Shown one piece after another: positions 1-20,521 of a stretch of 20,543 bases of DNA. Source of the stretch: a virus. A program made the translations under genes and the position numbers. Each line of letters starts with the position of its first letter. The stretch's first letter is position 1. The stretch lies in IMG/VR virus record IMGVR_UViG_3300042879_004430, positions 1-20,543 of that record, one strand, 5' to 3'. Below the pieces are notes generated by a model that was not told where the DNA came from, ran no database searches, and worked only from the letters and a program-made list of their open reading frames with translations.

Positions 1-207
1 CTTCAAGGTACTCAAGGTCTTCAAGGTTTAAGTAATCAAGGAACCCAAGGTCTTCAAGGCACTCAAGGTCTTCAAGGTACTCAAGGTCTTCAAGGTTTAA
101 GTAATCAAGGAACACAAGGTACTCAAGGAACTCAAGGACTTCAAGGTACTCAAGGTCTTCAGGGAGATCAAGGTACTCAAGGGGCAGATGGAATTCAAGG
201 TATATTT
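1..207 (+). repeat. Collagen-like rod A, Gly-X-Gln triplets
   Basis: Nine-base units encode G-L-Q, G-T-Q and G-D-Q triplets. The rod continues upstream of the window. Two GLSNQG interruptions, at 25-42 and 94-111, break the triplet register by two residues each. No proline occurs in the visible triplets. Confidence 0.95.
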
Positions 208-3200
208 GGATCTTACAGTTCTTCAGCATTCAGATACACTTTTGACCTATCAATTTCAGAAACTGAACCAGATCCTGGTCATATTAAATTTAACAATTCT
301 AATTTTAGTTTATGTACTAAATTAATAATTTCTAAGAGTGATTTTTATAATGTTGGATTATCTACTTTTCTTGAAACTATAGATGATTCAACTTCAGACC
401 ATAAAGGATATTTTTCAGTTAAAGATTTAAATAATTATCAACATTATGTAATTTTTTCTATTAGTCCAAGTGAATCTGGGTCAATATATCCAAATTACAT
501 AATTTTTAATTGTAGTTATGTTTCCGGAATTACAACCTCTCAACCACCATCTGAAATTGGAGATCCAATTTCAGATGTAATTATATCTTTTTCGAGAACT
601 GGTGATCTAGGAGATCAGGGAGTTCAAGGTCTTCAGGGTGGTGGATCTCAAGGATTTCAAGGTCTTCAAGGAAATCAAGGAACACAAGGTCTTCAAGGTT
701 TAAGTAATCAAGGGGTTCAAGGTCTTCAGGGAGATCAAGGTACTCAAGGAACACAAGGTCTTCAAGGTACTCAAGGAACACAAGGTCTTCAAGGAAATCA
801 AGGTCTCCAAGGACATCAAGGTACTCAAGGAACACAAGGTCTTCAAGGTGATCAAGGTCTTCAAGGTGATCAAGGTCTTCAGGGAGATCAAGGTACTCAA
901 GGTCTTCAAGGAGATCAAGGAACTCAAGGTACTCAAGGTCTTCAAGGTTTAAGTAATCAAGGGATTCAAGGTCTTCAAGGAAATCAAGGTCTTCAAGGTA
1001 CTCAAGGTCTAACAGGCCCTATAGCAGGTTCTGCAAATCAAATTGTTTATAAAGACGGATCTAATAATCCAACTGGTTCTGGAAACCTGACTTTTGACGG
1101 CACTAATCTTTATGTTGGTGGTAATGTAACAATTGGCGGTACTAGTGTTCTAATTGCCGCCACTACATTAGTGGTAAATGATAAAGATATCATTGTTGGT
1201 CTTGCTACGACTGCTGGTGGTATTGTTATTTCTAATGATAATACCGCAAATCACGGTGGTATTGCTGTTGCATCAACTGAAGGAAGTCCATTATTTAATA
1301 TTAGTGCTGGTCTTGGTACTGATGATATTCCATCCACATATAAGCAGATTATGTGGTTGAAGTCTGGTACTTTGACTGGACTCAATACTGATGCGTGGTT
1401 ATTTAATTATGCTGTAGGTGTTGGTACTGACCAAGTTCCAAATGGTGTAAGACTTGCTGCAGGTGCTATCAATGTCTTAGATAATAAACTAAATGTAGCA
1501 GGAGATATTGATTTTAGTGGAACATTCTATCAAAATGGAAGTCCATTTGTAGCATCAAGATGGTCTGCTGGGACTGGAGATGATATTTACAGATTGAATG
1601 GTAATGTTGGCATAAAAACATCATCTCCACAATCAGCACTTGATGTTCGTGGAACAATCTCAATTGGTAGAACTGATGCTTCTACTGTAAACACTATTTA
1701 CTCTGTTGTTGATATTAACTCTTGGGAGTATGGTGGTATAAGTCTTGCAGTTGGTGGACAAGATACTGCACCAACAGACATTTACTTCAAAGATGATGGA
1801 ACCAAGATGTTTATTCTTGGTGATACTGGAAATGATGTAAATGAATATGCACTTTCTACTGCTTGGGAAGTAAATACTGCAACATTTACAACTAACTTTG
1901 TTGTTGGGGGACAAGAAACTTTTCCAACAGGTTTATATTTTAAACCAGATGGAACCAGAATGTATATCTGTGGTCAAACTGGGGTTTCTCCAACTGGTGA
2001 TAGAGTTTATTCTTATACATTAAGCAATCCTTGGTCTCTTGTTGGAGTTACTACCGATACTGTTGCTGGTGCTGGAACCACTGTTAAAAACTTTAATGTA
2101 GGAGCAAATGATACTGGACCACAAGGACTTTATTTTAAAGATGATGGAACTAAGATGTATGTGGTTGGTTCCACTGGTGATGCGGTTTATGAATATACAG
2201 TTTCTACTGCCTGGGAAATTGATTCAACTGTAACTCTTAATCATACACTTTTGATTGGCGCGACAAATACTCAAAATCTTCCACTGACTCTGACTGCTCC
2301 AACGGGTATTGATTTTAATGATACTGGAATCAAGATGTATATTACGGATTCAGCCCGTGATTTAGTTGCAAGATTTGATTTATCTACTCCTTGGGACTTA
2401 AGTACTGCAGTATTTTATGATAATGTTTATGTTGGTTTCCAAGATCTTACTCCAAATGGAATATTTTATCAAGAAGACCAATCAAAGGCATATGTAGTTG
2501 GTGATAGTAATAATACTGTTTATCAATACAATACTGATGTTCCTTCACTTGAATTTGCATCTTCTGGTATTTCCACAAGGTCTTCGGTCATCATTAATAA
2601 TGAAGCAAGATTAAAAAATCGTCTTTATGTAACTGATACTGCTCATTTTAGCAGACCAGTTACAGTTAAGGAATCACTCCAAATTGATGGTGCTGTTGCA
2701 ACAAGTAGTAACCTTACAGTTTCTGGTGGAACAATAACTACAGGAAACGTTGCTGCGACACTTCTTAGTGGTAATACTACTACCAACATCACTCTGGCAA
2801 GTGGACAAACTTCAGGAACATTAATTGTTGGTGGTGCTTCACAAACTGGAACTATAACAATAGACCAGTCTGCTTCTGGTCATATTTTAAATATTGCTAC
2901 TGGTGCTAATGCTTCTGGAGTAGGAAAAACTGTTAATATTGCAACTGGTGGTGCTTCTGGTTCCAGAACTTTAATCACTGTTGGTTCTGCTGTTGCTGGT
3001 GCTGCAAGTACAGTCTTCATTCCATCACCAACTAGTCTTGGTATTGGAATCACAAATCCAGGAGCAACTTTAAATGTAGTTCCAACAACCACAAGTATTG
3101 CTGGATTGTTCTCTGGAACCACATCAAGTGATATGGTTCGCATTACTCAACTTGGTTCTGGTAATGCTCTGGTAGTTGAAGATTCTGCTAATCCCGATGC

Positions 3201-5343
3201 AACTCCTTTTGTTGTTAGTGCTGATGGTTCAGTTGGTATCGGAACCACAAATCCATTAGGACCTTTACATTTACAAAGTAATACTCCAATTATAAGATTT
3301 GCAGAATCTGATGCATCCGCAAATAATAGAAATTGGAATGTTGGTGTTAATAACCAAGAGTTTTATTGGCAAGCACTAAGTGATGTTGGAAGTGGTGGTG
3401 GTAATTTATTTAAATTTACTAGAAGTGCTGAACAAATTCAAACTTTTGAAGGTTTGAATGGTGGAGTTACTTGGTTTGAAGTTGATAACAGTACTCAAAG
3501 AGTTGGTATCGGAACTTCAATTGCATCAGCAGTTCTTGATGTTCGTGGAACTCCTTGGTTCTCTCCAAATACCACAGGTGTAAAGGCAACAGCATTAAGA
3601 CTTGGAACACTTGTTGATGGTGTTAATGCTGCCTTTGATATTATTACCAATGATAATACTGGAGATGATATTGAAGTCCAAAGCAATCGTTTTACTGGAA
3701 AATTAAGATTCAGTAGAAGTTCTCCATCTGGTATTCAGACAACATTTATACTTGATTCTAACTATCTAACTGGAACAAGTATTTCAATTGCCGATACAAC
3801 AGGAACCACAACAAAAATAAAAATTGACGAAGCAGGAAATACTTTCTTTAACAATAGTGGAGCAGTATTAGTCGGCACTGCTACATCAACAGGAACCGCA
3901 TCACAAAGACTTCAAGTTACTGGTGGTGCTTATGTTTCTGGTAATACTGGAATAGGAACTACAAATCCATCAGATCCTTTAGACGTAAATGGAAATATAA
4001 GAGTTCGTTCTGCCCTTAAAGATTATTATGGAAATGTAGGTGCTGCGGGATCTGTTTTAACTGTTGTTGGTGCTGGTATTGGAGTAAGTTGGACTCCTCC
4101 ATTTGCGGCAGGACTTCAAGGTACACAAGGACTTCAGGGACTTCAAGGTACTCAAGGACTTCAAGGCAATCAAGGACTTCAAGGTACACAAGGACTTCAG
4201 GGACTTCAAGGTACTCAAGGTCTTCAAGGTACTCAAGGTCTTCAAGGTACTCAAGGACTGCAGGGTACTCAAGGACTCCAAGGTAATCAAGGACTCCAAG
4301 GTAATCAAGGACTTCAAGGTACTCAAGGTCTTCAAGGACTTCAAGGCAATCAAGGTCTTCAAGGACACCAGGGAACTCAAGGTCTTCAAGGTAATCAAGG
4401 CAATCAAGGACTTCAAGGTGCTCAAGGTCTTCAAGGTAATCAAGGACTTCAAGGTCTTCAAGGACTTCAGGGAGATCAAGGAACTCAGGGTACTCAAGGA
4501 CTTCAGGGATTAAGTAATCAAGGGGTTCAAGGTCTTCAGGGAGATCAAGGAACTCAGGGTACTCAAGGACTTCAGGGAGATCAAGGAACTCAGGGTACTC
4601 AAGGACTTCAAGGTAATCAAGGACTTCAAGGTCTTCAAGGACTTCAGGGAGATCAAGGAACTCAAGGTACTCAAGGACTTCAAGGTAATCAAGGACTTCA
4701 AGGTCTTCAAGGACTTCAGGGAGATCAAGGAACTCAAGGTACTCAAGGTCTTCAGGGTACTCAAGGTGCTCAAGGACTTCAAGGTAATCAAGGATTGCAA
4801 GGCACTCAAGGACTTCAAGGTAATCAAGGATTGCAAGGCACTCAAGGACTTCAAGGTAATCAAGGAAGGCAAGGCACTCAAGGACTTCAAGGTAATCAAG
4901 GATTGCAAGGCACTCAAGGACTTCAAGGTAATCAAGGAAGGCAAGGACTTCAGGGACTTATTGGAACTCCTATTCCATGGACAGTAAAAACTGCAAATTA
5001 CACTGCTGTTGCAAAAGACCAAATACTCGCCAATACCTCTGGTGGATCTTTTACTATTACTTTACCAGCATCTCCATCTTCTGGTGATTATATTCGTATT
5101 GGTGATGACAACGATTGGTTTACTAATAATTTAACAGTCGCTAGAAATGGAAGTACAATTGAAGGATTGAGTGATGATTTTGTATTAGATATTAAGGGAA
5201 TTATAGTTGAGTTTGTTTATAATGGTTCTACATGGCAAGTTTATTCTTATGCTGGTCCAGCGGGCGCTCAAGGTACTACTGGATCTAGTACAAGTGGTGG
5301 TGGAACTGGTGATATTTTAGAGATTATGTTATTTGCACTATAA
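1..5343 (+). CDS. Giant collagen-like tail-fibre protein, 5' end outside window
   Basis: Frame 1 has no stop from base 1 to the TAA at 5341-5343, giving 1780 visible residues. The first GTG after the rods (1171) lies inside a continuous structural region and has no Shine-Dalgarno site, so it is not the start. Domains in order, in window residues: collagen-like rod A (1-67); a globular insert of about 130 residues rich in beta strands, with a DPGxxxFNN segment typical of phage fibres; rod B (204-339); a beta shaft; five propeller-like repeats (about 590-833); a fibre shaft with four GIGTxxP-like motifs near 3040, 3232, 3499 and 3946; rod C (1371-1655); and a C-terminal cap with the fibre-type TLPASPSSGDYIRIGD segment. 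The role is inferred to be a trimeric long fibre contacting the cyanobacterial surface. There is no visible S74 autochaperone, although GIGTxxP shafts often precede one. The long repeats may vary in length between isolates. Confidence 0.88.
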   Translation, partial: LQGTQGLQGLSNQGTQGLQGTQGLQGTQGLQGLSNQGTQGTQGTQGLQGTQGLQGDQGTQGADGIQGIFGSYSSSAFRYTFDLSISETEPDPGHIKFNNSNFSLCTKLIISKSDFYNVGLSTFLETIDDSTSDHKGYFSVKDLNNYQHYVIFSISPSESGSIYPNYIIFNCSYVSGITTSQPPSEIGDPISDVIISFSRTGDLGDQGVQGLQGGGSQGFQGLQGNQGTQGLQGLSNQGVQGLQGDQGTQGTQGLQGTQGTQGLQGNQGLQGHQGTQGTQGLQGDQGLQGDQGLQGDQGTQGLQGDQGTQGTQGLQGLSNQGIQGLQGNQGLQGTQGLTGPIAGSANQIVYKDGSNNPTGSGNLTFDGTNLYVGGNVTIGGTSVLIAATTLVVNDKDIIVGLATTAGGIVISNDNTANHGGIAVASTEGSPLFNISAGLGTDDIPSTYKQIMWLKSGTLTGLNTDAWLFNYAVGVGTDQVPNGVRLAAGAINVLDNKLNVAGDIDFSGTFYQNGSPFVASRWSAGTGDDIYRLNGNVGIKTSSPQSALDVRGTISIGRTDASTVNTIYSVVDINSWEYGGISLAVGGQDTAPTDIYFKDDGTKMFILGDTGNDVNEYALSTAWEVNTATFTTNFVVGGQETFPTGLYFKPDGTRMYICGQTGVSPTGDRVYSYTLSNPWSLVGVTTDTVAGAGTTVKNFNVGANDTGPQGLYFKDDGTKMYVVGSTGDAVYEYTVSTAWEIDSTVTLNHTLLIGATNTQNLPLTLTAPTGIDFNDTGIKMYITDSARDLVARFDLSTPWDLSTAVFYDNVYVGFQDLTPNGIFYQEDQSKAYVVGDSNNTVYQYNTDVPSLEFASSGISTRSSVIINNEARLKNRLYVTDTAHFSRPVTVKESLQIDGAVATSSNLTVSGGTITTGNVAATLLSGNTTTNITLASGQTSGTLIVGGASQTGTITIDQSASGHILNIATGANASGVGKTVNIATGGASGSRTLITVGSAVAGAASTVFIPSPTSLGIGITNPGATLNVVPTTTSIAGLFSGTTSSDMVRITQLGSGNALVVEDSANPDATPFVVSADGSVGIGTTNPLGPLHLQSNTPIIRFAESDASANNRNWNVGVNNQEFYWQALSDVGSGGGNLFKFTRSAEQIQTFEGLNGGVTWFEVDNSTQRVGIGTSIASAVLDVRGTPWFSPNTTGVKATALRLGTLVDGVNAAFDIITNDNTGDDIEVQSNRFTGKLRFSRSSPSGIQTTFILDSNYLTGTSISIADTTGTTTKIKIDEAGNTFFNNSGAVLVGTATSTGTASQRLQVTGGAYVSGNTGIGTTNPSDPLDVNGNIRVRSALKDYYGNVGAAGSVLTVVGAGIGVSWTPPFAAGLQGTQGLQGLQGTQGLQGNQGLQGTQGLQGLQGTQGLQGTQGLQGTQGLQGTQGLQGNQGLQGNQGLQGTQGLQGLQGNQGLQGHQGTQGLQGNQGNQGLQGAQGLQGNQGLQGLQGLQGDQGTQGTQGLQGLSNQGVQGLQGDQGTQGTQGLQGDQGTQGTQGLQGNQGLQGLQGLQGDQGTQGTQGLQGNQGLQGLQGLQGDQGTQGTQGLQGTQGAQGLQGNQGLQGTQGLQGNQGLQGTQGLQGNQGRQGTQGLQGNQGLQGTQGLQGNQGRQGLQGLIGTPIPWTVKTANYTAVAKDQILANTSGGSFTITLPASPSSGDYIRIGDDNDWFTNNLTVARNGSTIEGLSDDFVLDIKGIIVEFVYNGSTWQVYSYAGPAGAQGTTGSSTSGGGTGDILEIMLFAL
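610..1017 (+). repeat. Collagen-like rod B, Gly-X-Gln triplets
   Basis: About 45 triplets, mainly GLQ, GTQ, GNQ and GDQ, with one GHQ. It is broken by GLSNQG at 697-714 and 946-963 and by a glycine-serine stretch near 640-655. It leads into GLTGP and the following beta shaft. Confidence 0.95.
1768..2499 (+). repeat. Five propeller-like repeats inside the fibre protein
   Basis: A motif of the form P-x-G/D-h-Y-F-K-D-D-G-x-K-M-Y-h-h starts at 1768, 1921, 2116, 2296 and 2449, at intervals of 153, 195, 180 and 153 bases. Between motifs there is a conserved D-x-V-x-x-Y-x-L-S-T-x-W segment. The pattern resembles blades of a beta-propeller of the kind seen in many marine phage fibres. The fifth copy is degenerate (NGIFYQEDQSKAYVV). 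Confidence 0.75.
4111..4965 (+). repeat. Collagen-like rod C with nested 72-bp and 36-bp DNA repeats
   Basis: About 95 Gly-X-Gln triplets. Nearly every third residue is glutamine, and no proline or lysine was seen. There is one GLSNQG interruption at 4507-4524. At DNA level a 72-bp unit is repeated at 4603-4674 and 4675-4746. A 36-bp unit starts at 4774, 4810, 4846, 4882 and 4918, with a ttg/agg variant codon alternating in the later copies. This points to recent expansion by unequal recombination or slippage. Confidence 0.95.
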
Positions 5344-5730: not shown

Positions 5731-7782
5731 ATGGCAGGTAAAAGTGTAAATTCTATTGGTTCAAAGAATTGGTCACCGGGACCACCAGCAACAAGATATA
5801 ATGCAAGTGGTAAGAACCGCGAGTTTTATACTTTTGAAAATGCCCCCGGTTTAGGAAATTATGCAACTGGTGGAACCATTATTGACGGTGGTGATGGATA
5901 CATTTATCATATCTTCACTGGTGATGGAACCTTTGCAGTTAATCGTCCTCCTGCGGTAATTGATAGTGTTGATTATATGATTGTTGCAGGCGGCGGGGCG
6001 GGTGGTGCGGGATCTGGCGGCACTATTCCCGGCGGTGGAGGGGGTGCCGGTGGGATGTTATTTGGTAATATTGGTGTTTCTAATGCTCCAGGATCTTATT
6101 CAATTTCTATTGGTGGCGGTGGTGCATCTAATGGACCTAATAATCCATCGGCATCAAGACACGGAGTTAATTCCGCAGCATTTGGATTAACTGCCGAAGG
6201 AGGTGGGGGTGGTGGAGGTAATGGACCTTTCCCTCTAATAAGTTCGCAGGCGCTCGGGGATCCTGGAGGATCTGGTGGTGGAGCTTTCAGTGCCCCACCC
6301 ACAGGTGGTAGATCTGGAGGAACAGGAAATACTCCTGAAACTATACCAAGACAGGGATATCCAGGCGCTCCATCATCAATGCCCAACAGTAGCCCCCCGG
6401 CTATTGGTGGCGGTGGCGGTGGAGCAGGTGGTGCAGGTGGGCATGAAGCAAATGGTGATCCAGCTGGTCCACCTTTTGTTCCCAGAGGTTATGGTGGACC
6501 AGGAAGACTCGTTCCTCAATTTCCAATTCCTATTATTGGGAAAGCAATTCCATCAACAAATTATCCAGTTTGGTACAATGATGTAGCGGAAGGGAGCACT
6601 TATTCTGGAAATTCTGGAGGTGGATTATCTGCTGGAGGAAGAGCATGGCCTCCACCATCTAATTCTTCACCACAACTTAATGCTACTGATAATACTGGTC
6701 ATGGTGGAATTGGTCAAACAACATCTCCAGGATTTAATGGTGGTTCTGGAATTGTTTGCATAAGATACAAAAAAAATGCACCTTACACAAGAGCAACTGG
6801 TGGAACAGTAGAACCAAGTACTCATCCAGAACATCCTGGTGTATGGAGACATATTTTTACTTCTCCTGGAGATTTTACTGTTACTGACCCAACACTTCAA
6901 TGGATTGATTATCTTGCTGTTGGTGGTGGTGGAGGAGGCGGTTCTTATATTGGAGGTGGTGGTGGTGCCGGTGGTTTTGTGTCTTCCATTCATAATTCCA
7001 CAACAACACCACTTGTAATTCCAGAGGCATATCCTTGGAACCCAGGTTATTCGGTAAGAGCAGGAGAACAATATCCTGTGGGTGTTGCAACTTATCCAAT
7101 TGGTATTGGAACTGGCGGTGCTGGCGGTAATAGTGCAAATCCTCTACCACAATCCGGATCTCCTGGTCAAAATACAACAATAGGAAATCCAGGAGCATTA
7201 CAGATTATTGCATATGGTGGTGGAGGAGGTGGTGGATCCATTGTACATGTTAATCCATCCCCACCCGGAGCAAGAATTGCAGGTGGTGCTGGTGGATCTG
7301 GTGGAGGTGCTTGTGGGACTAACGGAGCACCTCCACCATTTTATACCGTTAATGGTGGAAGTGCTTCTCCAAGTCCACTAATTCAAGGAAATCCAGGAGC
7401 TTCTACGCCTGGTGCAGGGGCCCCCAACGGTGGACTTGGTGGTGGTGCTGCAAGCACCCCCTCAACCCCAACTAACGGAGGTTGGTATTCTGTTTTGTCT
7501 CCATCTGCTTATGGAACTCCAGGACCACTTACACCAACTGCAATATATAGATATTTTGCTGGAGGTGGAGGTGGTGGAGGTAATCCTGGAAACGGTACTT
7601 CAGGAGGAGCAGGTGGAGGAGGTAGGGGTGGAAGCATTCCAGGAGCTCCAGATGGTCATCCCGTTAATGGTGTAGATGGAACCACCAACACTGGTGGTGG
7701 TGGAGGTGGAGGTGCTGAAGAATCCACCGCAATAGGGGGATCTGGCGGTCCTGGCATTGTTATTATTCAATATCCAGAATAA
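5731..7782 (+). CDS. Double-module glycine-rich fibre adhesin
   Basis: A 683-aa protein whose ATG follows tandem stops (TGA TAA) of the previous gene, with AAGGAGG at 5716-5722 as ribosome site. It holds two copies of one module. Module 1 (about 35-347) starts with YIYHIFTGDGTF and DYMIVAGGG, passes through many poly-glycine runs separated by Pro/Asn/Ser loops, and ends in SGIVCIRY. Module 2 (about 355-683) starts with WRHIFTSPGDF and IDYLAVGGGG and ends in GPGIVIIQY. Runs of glycine framed by a beta-strand collar recall polyglycine-II adhesins such as Gp38 of the T4-like Salmonella phage S16, which caps a long tail fibre and binds the receptor. A host-recognition role is inferred from this and from the adjoining fibre genes. 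The modules correspond to the separate proteins at 10444 and 11416. Confidence 0.82.
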   Translation: MAGKSVNSIGSKNWSPGPPATRYNASGKNREFYTFENAPGLGNYATGGTIIDGGDGYIYHIFTGDGTFAVNRPPAVIDSVDYMIVAGGGAGGAGSGGTIPGGGGGAGGMLFGNIGVSNAPGSYSISIGGGGASNGPNNPSASRHGVNSAAFGLTAEGGGGGGGNGPFPLISSQALGDPGGSGGGAFSAPPTGGRSGGTGNTPETIPRQGYPGAPSSMPNSSPPAIGGGGGGAGGAGGHEANGDPAGPPFVPRGYGGPGRLVPQFPIPIIGKAIPSTNYPVWYNDVAEGSTYSGNSGGGLSAGGRAWPPPSNSSPQLNATDNTGHGGIGQTTSPGFNGGSGIVCIRYKKNAPYTRATGGTVEPSTHPEHPGVWRHIFTSPGDFTVTDPTLQWIDYLAVGGGGGGGSYIGGGGGAGGFVSSIHNSTTTPLVIPEAYPWNPGYSVRAGEQYPVGVATYPIGIGTGGAGGNSANPLPQSGSPGQNTTIGNPGALQIIAYGGGGGGGSIVHVNPSPPGARIAGGAGGSGGGACGTNGAPPPFYTVNGGSASPSPLIQGNPGASTPGAGAPNGGLGGGAASTPSTPTNGGWYSVLSPSAYGTPGPLTPTAIYRYFAGGGGGGGNPGNGTSGGAGGGGRGGSIPGAPDGHPVNGVDGTTNTGGGGGGGAEESTAIGGSGGPGIVIIQYPE

Positions 7783-9612: not shown

Positions 9613-9822
9613 ATGCCAACCAGTTTATCGTCATTTTTAGGAACTACTTATAATGGACTTCAAGGTGTTCAAGGAGCAATTGCTTCTCAGGGATCTCAAG
9701 GTCTTCAAGGAGGTCAGGGGATTCAAGGTGTTGGAGGATCATTTAGTACACAAGGTGTTCAGGGTCTTCAAGGTCGTTCTGAAATTGGACTTGCCATACT
9801 TTCTTACTTGTCTCCTTCTTAA
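9613..9822 (+). CDS. 69-aa mini-collagen protein, copy 1
   Basis: A short protein with an N-terminal MPTSLSSFLGT head, about 15 Gly-X-Q/Gly-X-X triplets (GLQ, GVQ, GSQ, GGQ, GIQ) with interruptions, and a hydrophobic tail LAILSYLSPS. It has the same length and plan as the next gene, so the pair is a tandem duplication. The rod resembles those of the giant fibre but has the heads and tails of a free-standing protein. It might trimerise and join larger fibres, or be a minimal fibre itself. The start is the ATG 19 bases downstream of the late-like box; no strong ribosome site is visible. Confidence 0.75.
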   Translation: MPTSLSSFLGTTYNGLQGVQGAIASQGSQGLQGGQGIQGVGGSFSTQGVQGLQGRSEIGLAILSYLSPS

Positions 9823-9828
9823 AATAAA

Positions 9829-10038
9829 ATGCCAACTTCATTAAGTACTTTTTTATCAACTCAAACTCAAGGGACTCAAGGTGTTCAGGGGCGTAGTTTT
9901 CAAGGAACTCAGGGTGTTATTGGAAGTCACCAAGGTGCTCAAGGAATTACAGGTGAATTAGTGGGACAAGGAACACAGGCAACACTTGCTAAAAATGCTA
10001 AAGGTCTTTCAATGCTTGCTTGGTTGACACCTGGATAA
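9829..10038 (+). CDS. 69-aa mini-collagen protein, copy 2
   Basis: Head MPTSLSTFLST, then about 13 Gly-X-Gln-like triplets (GTQ, GVQ, GAQ) broken by GRSF and GSH, then a tail ending LSMLAWLTPG. Head and hydrophobic tail align with copy 1, while the rod has diverged. It begins six bases after copy 1 ends. The stop codon TAA lies inside a double late-promoter box. Function unknown; a structural role is inferred from the collagen-like rod and the location. Confidence 0.75.
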   Translation: MPTSLSTFLSTQTQGTQGVQGRSFQGTQGVIGSHQGAQGITGELVGQGTQATLAKNAKGLSMLAWLTPG

Positions 10039-12868: not shown

Positions 12869-13846
12869 ATGAGTAATTTTGTAAAACTTGCGTTGGAAAA
12901 TGGGGGATCTATTCATCCACTTATTATTCCTTCAACAGATTTAAAGGGACCTGCAATAACAAATCCATCAATTTATAATGATAATGGTAAACTCATTGTC
13001 AATCTTAGAAATATCAATTACACACTTTATCATTCTGAGAAAAAAACATTTGAGCACCACTGGGGGCCACTAGTTTATATTCACCCAGAAAATGATATGC
13101 GTTTGCGTACATGGAATGTAATTGGTGAACTGGATGAAAATCTGAGACTTAAATGGCATACTCATATTGATACTTCTAAACATCCCGATAAAGAACTTTG
13201 GGAGTTTGTTGGATTAGAAGATGCTCGTATTTTTAGATGGGAAGGTAAACTTTATACGTGTGGTGTGAGAAGGGATCTTGATACCATTGGCACGGGAAGA
13301 ATGGAACTTTGTGAGATTGAAATTGTAGATGGCGTGGTTAAAGAACTAAGTCAACACCGTATTCCAACTCCAGGAGATAACAGTTCTTATTGTGAAAAGA
13401 ATTGGATGCCAATTCTTGATATGCCATATCATTTTGTTAAATGGACGAATGGTACAGAAGTTGTTAAATATGATATTCACACTGGTCAGACAACTCAGGT
13501 TGTTATAAAAGAATGGACAGATCTAGGGTGTATTGATCTTCGTGGAGGATCTCAGGTTATTCCTTTTGGTGAATATCGTCTTGCTTTAAATCATGAAACT
13601 TTTCTCACCAGAAGTCCCGCAGGCAGAAAGGACGGTACTTACCGCCACAGATTTATTGTTTGGGATAAAGATTGGAATATTGTAAAAGTTTCAAGAAGGT
13701 TTTCTTTCTTAGAAGCAGAGATTGAATTTGCCGTTGGTATGTGCGAATATGGTGATGACTATCTAATTACATTTGGTTTCCAGGATAATGCTGCTTATCT
13801 TTTGAAAGTTAATAAAAAATTTGTTTCTAATTATATACTTGAATAA
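12869..13846 (+). CDS. GH130-like five-bladed propeller protein
   Basis: A 325-aa protein with the spacing and motifs of GH130-type glycoside phosphorylases and related GH43-like propellers: NPSI near the N-terminus, GLEDARIFRWEGKLY around residues 115-129, EKNWMPI near 175, DLRGGSQVIPF near 225, and YRHRFIVWDKD near 260. The GLEDAR segment stands where GH130 enzymes have the G-E-D-P-R motif with the catalytic Asp. GH130 enzymes phosphorolyse or hydrolyse beta-mannosides, but similar proteins are found beside glycosyltransferases without known activity. It opens the sugar block and precedes the next gene by two bases. Catalysis is uncertain; it might only bind glycan. Confidence 0.62.
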   Translation: MSNFVKLALENGGSIHPLIIPSTDLKGPAITNPSIYNDNGKLIVNLRNINYTLYHSEKKTFEHHWGPLVYIHPENDMRLRTWNVIGELDENLRLKWHTHIDTSKHPDKELWEFVGLEDARIFRWEGKLYTCGVRRDLDTIGTGRMELCEIEIVDGVVKELSQHRIPTPGDNSSYCEKNWMPILDMPYHFVKWTNGTEVVKYDIHTGQTTQVVIKEWTDLGCIDLRGGSQVIPFGEYRLALNHETFLTRSPAGRKDGTYRHRFIVWDKDWNIVKVSRRFSFLEAEIEFAVGMCEYGDDYLITFGFQDNAAYLLKVNKKFVSNYILE

Positions 13847-20123: not shown

Positions 20124-20152
20124 TTGCTATATAAATGCAATAGGTCTATAAT
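20124..20152 (+). promoter_or_regulatory. Sigma70-type promoter of the riboswitch-peptide operon
   Basis: -35 TTGCTA (20124-20129), a 17-base spacer and a perfect -10 TATAAT (20147-20152). Transcription start is expected near 20159, exactly at the first aptamer base. This is the best host-type promoter in the window and marks an early or host-polymerase-read unit. A TATAAATG late-like box lies in the spacer (20130-20137). Confidence 0.8.
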
Positions 20153-20158
20153 GACCTT

Positions 20159-20256
20159 ACGTTCATCTGGAAATCAGACGGAAGTAAGCCGACGCGGAAC
20201 GGATCGTTCATTCGCTATTTGCAAATAGCGAACGCAAACGCCGACTGAAGGAACGC
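20159..20256 (+). ncRNA. Glutamine riboswitch-like leader, downstream-peptide/glnA class
   Basis: The conserved core segments of the glutamine-binding aptamer class are present in order: CGTTCATC (20160-20167), a TCTG/CAGA hairpin (20166-20169 with 20175-20178), CGGAAGTAAG (20179-20188) and GAAGGAACGC (20247-20256). CGTTC pairs with GAACG (20251-20255) as P1. AGTA and GAA can form the bulged-G (loop E) element. The third arm is enlarged by a 22-base perfect palindrome (20211-20232), which folds as a 9-bp hairpin. The downstream-peptide class is known from cyanobacteria and marine phages upstream of short ORFs, as here. Ligand binding is inferred from class membership. Confidence 0.78.
20211..20232. 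repeat. Perfect 22-base palindrome in the leader
   Basis: TTCGCTATTTG followed at once by its exact reverse complement. In RNA it gives a 9-bp stem with a TGCA loop. It sits in the third arm of the aptamer. Confidence 0.9.
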
Positions 20257-20280
20257 TCTTTAACCTAAACCATTAAGGAG
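20256..20280 (+). promoter_or_regulatory. Shine-Dalgarno-sequestering hairpin
   Basis: CTCTTTAA (20256-20263) pairs along all eight bases, one of them a G-U wobble, with TTAAGGAG (20273-20280), which contains the AAGGAG ribosome site of ATG 20288. The loop is nine bases. It begins directly at the aptamer's 3' end, so it is a natural translational expression platform. Confidence 0.6.
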
Positions 20281-20287
20281 AACCCTA

Positions 20288-20419
20288 ATGTCAAAAGTAG
20301 TATATCGTGGTGTTGAATATGACACCGAAGTGCGTAAGCAAGAGCAAGCGCAGCAACAACCTCAACAATACAACGAAACCTATCGCGGTGTTAAGTTTGT
20401 AAAGGAGGGGCACAAATGA
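20288..20419 (+). CDS. 43-aa YRGV-repeat peptide (DUF4278-like), riboswitch-controlled
   Basis: A short ORF from ATG 20288, with AAGGAG seven bases upstream. The sequence starts MSKVVYRGVEYDTE, continues through a Gln/Glu-rich linker and ends ETYRGVKFVKEGHK, so the YRGV motif occurs twice. Repeated YRG-x-x-Y motifs mark DUF4278-type small proteins of cyanobacteria and their phages. In the downstream-peptide riboswitch class the regulated product is such a short peptide. By analogy with the glutamine-responsive inhibitor peptides of cyanobacterial nitrogen control, it might adjust host nitrogen metabolism, but no activity is shown by the sequence. The stop overlaps the next ATG (ATGA). Confidence 0.8.
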   Translation: MSKVVYRGVEYDTEVRKQEQAQQQPQQYNETYRGVKFVKEGHK

Positions 20420-20517
20420 ACACTTACTTCGTTCGTTACTTAAAGAAAAAAGCAAAGAAGGAAACCCTTCTCAAAATTGCACAACTGAATATGGCAAAGC
20501 AACCTCAAGTTGCTTGA
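20416..20517 (+). CDS. 33-aa basic peptide
   Basis: ATG 20416 overlaps the previous stop by four bases, with AAAGGAGG at 20401-20408 as a strong ribosome site. The peptide is MNTYFVRYLKKKAKKETLL followed by KIAQLNMAKQPQVA, rich in Lys and probably helical. No family is recognised. The ribosome site and coupling make a real small gene likely; it could act with the YRGV peptide. Confidence 0.6.
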   Translation: MNTYFVRYLKKKAKKETLLKIAQLNMAKQPQVA

Positions 20518-20521
20518 TATA

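Follow-up and report, generated by a model that had tools for sequence, protein, structure and literature searches.

The ‘window’ considered here, i.e., the whole 20,543-base stretch of viral DNA that was analyzed, resembles a T4-like cyanophage given its collagen-like tail genes, glutaredoxin, and speD, with its nearest DNA being that of Synechococcus phage S-SRM01. Collagen-like (GLQGTQ)n repeats are seen in a big tail-fibre-like ORF within 1-5343 and again in small ORFs at 9613-10038. An RF01646 (snoRNA) match at 13622-13684 is attributed to chance, scoring 23.6 bits where the cut-off is 65 (E 0.75). The subject of this report, however, is a plus-strand leader at 20160-20256, which is preceded by a promoter and followed by a gene for a small peptide.

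The promoter, which is sigma-70-like, spans 20124-20152 on the plus strand (TTGCTA at 20124-20129, 17 bases, and then TATAAT at 20147-20152). Seven bases separate its end from the CGTTC with which the leader begins at 20160, a spacing that is matched in most relatives, and transcripts thus should start at the riboswitch itself. The -10 box sits within a DNA palindrome (20142-20157; AGGTC-TATAAT-GACCT) that recurs at this place in relatives and whose arms differ between phages (GTGTTA..TAACAC elsewhere), with the longest arm mostly 6-7 bp versus 3 bp with swapped flanks. Perhaps this palindrome is an operator. Downstream, at 20288-20419 on the plus strand, is a gene for a 43-amino-acid peptide carrying YRGV twice, which matches phrog_5049 (E 4e-14) and is weakly DUF4278-like, i.e., 21.2 bits and E 3.7e-4 against Pfam DUF4278 over residues 5-36, where the cut-off is 25.3. 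A YRG or YKG peptide gene lies about 42 nt downstream in 323 of 329 relatives, mostly with the motif present twice. The six relatives without that gene possess, directly behind the riboswitch, a short basic ORF similar to the window's ORF 20417-20518. In the window that short ORF (MNTYFVRYLKKKAKKETLLKIAQLNMAKQPQVA) comes after the YRGV gene, and it is found also in S-SRM01.

The original prediction was of a glutamine-riboswitch-family leader in a phage, ahead of a YRGV peptide, and this is borne out by two matches to Rfam's RF01739 (glutamine-I, glnA), one at 20203-20259 (33.8 bits; E 5e-4 over all families) and the other at 20158-20205 (30.5 bits). Both of these contiguous copies fall just below the gathering cut-off of 35 bits; the model cannot join the two halves of what is described below as the outer aptamer. 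Scores for relatives reach 35.6-39.4 bits, and the published score for phage S-CREM1 is 44.0. The second covariance model that had been suggested, RF01704 (glutamine-II, or downstream-peptide), returned no hit in the window with E allowed up to 1, and its match to S-PM2, at 24.6 bits, is below the cut-off of 33.

CGTTCAT occurs twice in the leader (20160-20166 and 20205-20211), as does GAACGC (20230-20235 and 20251-20256), exactly where these strings had been placed, and they had been read as duplicated strands of P1. The duplication is real, but some of the proposed pairings are not, and a third GAACG (20197-20201) had been missed. Particularly, the GAACGC at 20230 is not a P1 strand but instead the 3' end of a different hairpin, P2', plus the CGC of a core, and it vanishes in relatives with a different P2' stem. 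Pairing of 20205 with 20230 likewise did not form upon folding and is absent from relatives with other P2' stems. The leader may better be described, from comparison of sequences, as a doubled glutamine-I (glnA, RF01739) aptamer, with one core nested inside the other. I place the probability of the reading as a whole, that is, a glutamine-I-family riboswitch of two nested aptamer cores and including the ligand binding and ON switching that are proposed below, at roughly 0.6.

As shown by comparison, the outer core combines the 5' half of copy 1 with the 3' half of copy 2. The 5' half (20160-20186), supported by the upstream RF01739 match as well as by covariation of pair 40:123 and of P2, consists of the P1 strand CGUUC (20160-20164), P2 (20166-20169 with 20175-20178), and a loop-E strand running to A20186. 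Within it G20180 is the ligand-contact G and G20181 is the long-range partner of C20256. The 3' half (20247-20256), supported by the downstream match and by the long-range pair, consists of the loop-E strand GAAG (20247-20250), the P1 strand GAACG (20251-20255), and C20256. With the halves of the copies so combined, the core has P1 (CGUUC/GAACG), P2, and a three-way junction with P3, and its loop-E motif is present, i.e., GGAAGUA (20180-20186) opposite GAAG. P3 itself, as identified by covariation across copies, joins AGCCGACG (20187-20194) to CGCCGACU (20239-20246), forming six pairs plus two A.C positions.

The inner core is circularly permuted, that is, with its own P1 (P1'; 20197-20209) closed by a 3-nt loop and with P3 shared head to head. 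P1' is made up of GAACG (20197-20201), the loop GAU (20202-20204), and CGUUC (20205-20209), at a pair probability of 0.81-0.93 upon folding, with G20202 of its loop forming a covarying long-range pair with C20235. This hairpin is conserved in every relative, a conservation which the search pattern partly fixed. Following it are P2' (20211-20232), which is a 9-bp hairpin with loop UGCA and a covarying stem, and then the core CGCAAA (20233-20238), identified by alignment and by pair 61:102, which supplies the ligand-contact G20234 and the long-range base C20235. The alignment shows this inner core to be without a loop-E motif, CGCAAA (GCAAA) instead being opposite CG. A hairpin of the form TTCGCTATT(T/C)GC(A/G)AATAGCGAA, as found at 20211-20232 of the window and in L007, L304, and others, takes the place of P2' within the inner core of many leaders and of P2 within the outer core of others, and may be a shared or mobile module.

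The defects of the two copies are complementary. In copy 1 (CGUUCAUC-P2-ACGGAAGUAAGCCGACGCGGAACG) the 5' half is perfect but the GAAG side of loop E is missing, and in copy 2 (CGUUCAUU-P2'-ACGCAAACGCCGACUGAAGGAACGC) the 3' half is perfect but the GGAAGUA side is missing. The same is seen in S-CREM1, S-SRM01, DSL-LC02, and DSL-LC03, and, with ACGCAAGUA, in S-PM2. The leader's arm, which had been thought unusually long, indeed is so, with the extra strands representing another aptamer core, which has been inserted where P3 ends.

Relatives were obtained from IMG/VR by means of pattern scans, four with copy 2 left free and one with copy 2 fixed, yielding 377 leaders with both halves, of which 335 are distinct. 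The patterns imposed AAGTA, CGGAACG, and CGTTCA, and extraction imposed GAAGGAACG, so conservation of these is partly imposed. Three scans required uncommon bases at position 1, 3, or 8 of copy 1; partner bases were never required. The outer long-range pair is Watson-Crick in 335 of the 335 leaders (C-G in 228, G-C in 107, mismatched in 0). The inner one is so in 322 of 335, after register correction (C-G in 314, G-C in 8), with eight leaders, S-SRM01 included, being without it. The end pair of P3 (8:1) is U-A in 145 leaders, G-C in 86, and A-U in 85. Taken across copies, P3 8-mers are paired at all but one or two of their eight positions, whether as the window's AGCCGACG/CGCCGACU, the most common AGCCGACU/AGCCGACU, or AGCCGACA/UGCCGACU, GGACGACG/CGCCGCCC, CGCCGACU/AGCCGACG, and AGACAACG/CGUUGACU; the within-copy end pair fails for most of these combinations.

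In a 60-sequence alignment (A1) the nested structure is paired in 93.1% of cells, with double changes in 13 pairs and 186 cells versus 4-6 pairs and 7-29 cells for slid controls, where cells are sequences rather than independent events and counts ignore phylogeny. By APC-corrected mutual information, as calculated over 903 pairs of variable columns, ranks 1 through 8 all are nested pairs. One top-ranked pair is not Watson-Crick, i.e., 3:6 of P3, at which C.A is exchanged for A.C. Homologues keep the doubled strands and compensate for changes in them, rather than lacking the extra strands without compensation, the outcome that was to have refuted the original prediction.

Two ordinary tandem glutamine aptamers, or switching between tandem and nested pairing, would be a more familiar description of such a leader, and indeed a tandem or P1-strand-swapping two-state switch had been proposed for it, but this alternative must be viewed as very improbable. 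Each copy does obtain its own Rfam match, and the tandem fold is predicted to be slightly more stable (-35.1 versus -33.4 kcal/mol for the nested fold). Energy models alone do not favour nesting, and choosing among free, nested, and tandem folds solely by energy was set aside as indecisive, since the energy model takes no account of loop E, the long-range pairs, or the ligand, and P3 includes two A.C positions. Against the tandem description, its long-range pairs hold in just 223 and 209 of the 335 leaders, its exclusive column pairs rank only 65-755 of 903, and one side of loop E is missing from each copy. Its four discriminating helices are paired in 62-66% of cells and fail in 34-38%, with what covariation it displays coming almost solely from the P2 stems, which are common to both models. 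The window itself, if read as tandem, has G.G and C.C at the long-range pairs and mismatched P3 ends in both copies; if read as nested, its long-range pairs and P3 ends all are paired. Covariation thus rejects local tandem aptamers, with two self-contained aptamers not found, and the contiguous copies are not folding units. Pairing of either 5' strand with either 3' strand, giving mutually exclusive folds, is possible on paper, but the 335 relatives select the nested arrangement alone. Within that nested arrangement, both cores likely bind L-glutamine, for two sites in total, as every contact base, the long-range pair among them, has been retained or compensated for in each. The contacts seen in crystals of glutamine-II are C1, G18, C39, and G40, along with G2 and a C19:G41 pair (PMC6698751), and all of these are present at both cores, the ligand-contact bases being invariant at both in A1. 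A permuted core also is reasonable since a glutamine core can be built from a pair of separate strands of RNA (PMC6698751). Binding by the outer aptamer alone, with the inner core a decayed duplicate that is kept as a P3 cap or insertion site, is unlikely though of appreciable weight. It would account for the inner core's missing loop-E motif (GCAAA opposite CG versus GGAAGUA opposite GAAG) and for those leaders, 11-13 of 335, without an inner long-range pair. It accords poorly, however, with the invariance of the inner ligand-contact bases, with the compensatory change of the inner pair from C-G to G-C in eight leaders, and with glutamine-II binding glutamine despite being without loop E (PMC6698751).

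The direction of switching involves a similar weighing. Reaching from 20256 to 20280 on the plus strand is an anti-Shine-Dalgarno helix, the 8-bp helix over the ribosome site having been correctly foreseen, in which CUCUUUAA (20256-20263) pairs with UUAAGGAG (20273-20280) at a predicted probability of 0.74-0.99 and thereby covers AAGGAG (20275-20280). In the window's free fold the Shine-Dalgarno sequence (SD) is almost wholly hidden (0.004-0.006 unpaired), with GAC and AGG of the aptamer strand adding pairs that lengthen the SD-hiding hairpin. Given occupation of the aptamer strand along with C20256, predicted SD exposure rises to 0.25, and leaders of the CUCUUUA class, 74 in number, show a rise too, whereas the 228 leaders with other platforms do not. 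That rise, together with host glutamine riboswitches found before DUF4278 genes being ON switches (PMC6316151), favours with moderate confidence an ON switch for CUCUUUA-class leaders, including that of the window. Without glutamine the 3' strand (GAC, AGG, and C20256) would extend the hairpin hiding the SD of the DUF4278-like YRGV gene, and glutamine would draw this strand into the outer aptamer, weakening the hairpin and turning translation on. The opposite, a nested OFF switch in which outer P1 stacks on the anti-SD helix so that glutamine stabilizes a hidden ribosome site, seems rather unlikely. The helix does begin at the base adjoining P1, and it can coexist with the folded aptamer (SD 0.12 unpaired in the window's nested fold). 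C20256 nonetheless is needed for the long-range pair (335/335), so that the aptamer shortens the helix, and the exposure predictions and host relatives both argue against OFF as well.

In the window the P2 and P2' loops both are short. Among sampled relatives, the outer and inner loops respectively are hairpin and ORF in 156, both hairpins in 149, ORF and hairpin in 78, and both ORFs in 31, with long inserts being ORFs in 178 of 179 inner cases and 99 of 99 outer. An embedded ORF's ATG is found 3-7 nt past CGTTCA, or rarely 11-12, and stop codons may lie within the core, as for 166 inner ORFs, which end with the UGA in GACUGAAGG, and for 42 outer ORFs, which end with the UAA in AAGUAAGCC. Median dN/dS is about 0.18 for inner and outer sets alike, indicating purifying selection, and the P2 stems at insert bases are kept, with better matching within leaders than when shuffled. 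Marine outer ORFs are phrog_6471 and inner ones phrog_504, both of unknown function; forms from freshwater show weak matches to these families or none. In phage P-HM1, PHM1_179 is an outer ORF, and after it come PHM1_180 and PHM1_181, which by position are taken to be the inner ORF and the YRG gene. Two leaders (L046 and L159) have a 196-codon, homing-endonuclease-like ORF (phrog_10820, phrog_314) in their inner part. With starts at the P2 stem and stops often in the core, translation of an embedded ORF and folding of the aptamer should exclude each other. A two-site, cooperative riboswitch sharing one helix and having reciprocal outputs, i.e., embedded ORFs at low glutamine and the YRG/DUF4278-like peptide at high, can be offered only tentatively, as a possibility that falls short of even odds.

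Among 84,980 species genomes scanned, the nest pattern was credible in only three contigs (L461, L465, and L496), all interpreted as contigs of phages within single-cell or metagenome bins. RF01739 was found in 68 of 386 genomes of the host phylum, and in these 386 the nested model matched at full length in but one contig (G001, which is L496), its other matches being single aptamers of 53-81 nt. A host origin of the nest was rejected as both scans gave the nest only in contigs read as phage. Nested leaders are present in the widely studied cyanophages S-PM2 and P-HM1. One phage contig with a nested glutamine leader (L121) bears also a strong manA RNA at 6701-6886 (RF01745, 187 bits).

Phages already are known to carry glutamine riboswitches (PMC9964418, PMC9004378), and Weinberg 2010 (PMC2864571) mentioned ‘tandem’ glnA RNAs. 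The leader is like glutamine-I (RF01739; PMC2864571) in its P1 (CGUUC/GAACG), P2, and long-range pair, and also in its ACGG loop-E strand, its GAAG strand, and its site before a DUF4278-like gene. Ordinary members, however, have one core and a short P3, whereas here P3 joins two cores, the inner being permuted, and in the nested family loops may hold ORFs. S-CREM1 shares this doubled leader, which in that phage has been annotated as a single glnA element of 99 nt (PMC9964418). Glutamine-II (Downstream-peptide, RF01704; PMC6698751) shares the ligand-contact bases and the C19:G41-type pair, and it too precedes DUF4278 genes, in marine picocyanobacteria, but it folds as a pseudoknot in which P2 forms on the 3' side of the core, rather than as a three-way junction with P3. 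Riboswitches arranged in tandem, those for glycine among others, likewise have two same-family cores in one leader, as contiguous units rather than with one core inserted into the other. Methylophage Melnitz (PMC9004378) is a further marine T4-like phage with a glutamine riboswitch, which, in the parts of that account consulted, is described as glnA-like and linked to ssrA, with neither nest nor embedded ORF mentioned; it is by this description that it is set apart. The literature searched, to which Ames and Breaker 2011 and Klahn 2018 did not belong, yielded no description of a double aptamer that is nested and permuted, or of ORFs within the loops of one.

Repeated aptamers usually are read as side-by-side copies, but by covariation the contiguous copies here are not the units of folding. 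The leader thereby offers a natural, circularly permuted aptamer and a directly testable two-site RNA, and its relatives offer conserved genes inside of an aptamer's loops. The nest bears on how cyanophages may sense the nitrogen status of their hosts and on the role of their DUF4278-like peptides, given the similarity of host DUF4278 to a portion of a glutamine synthetase inactivating factor (PMC6316151).
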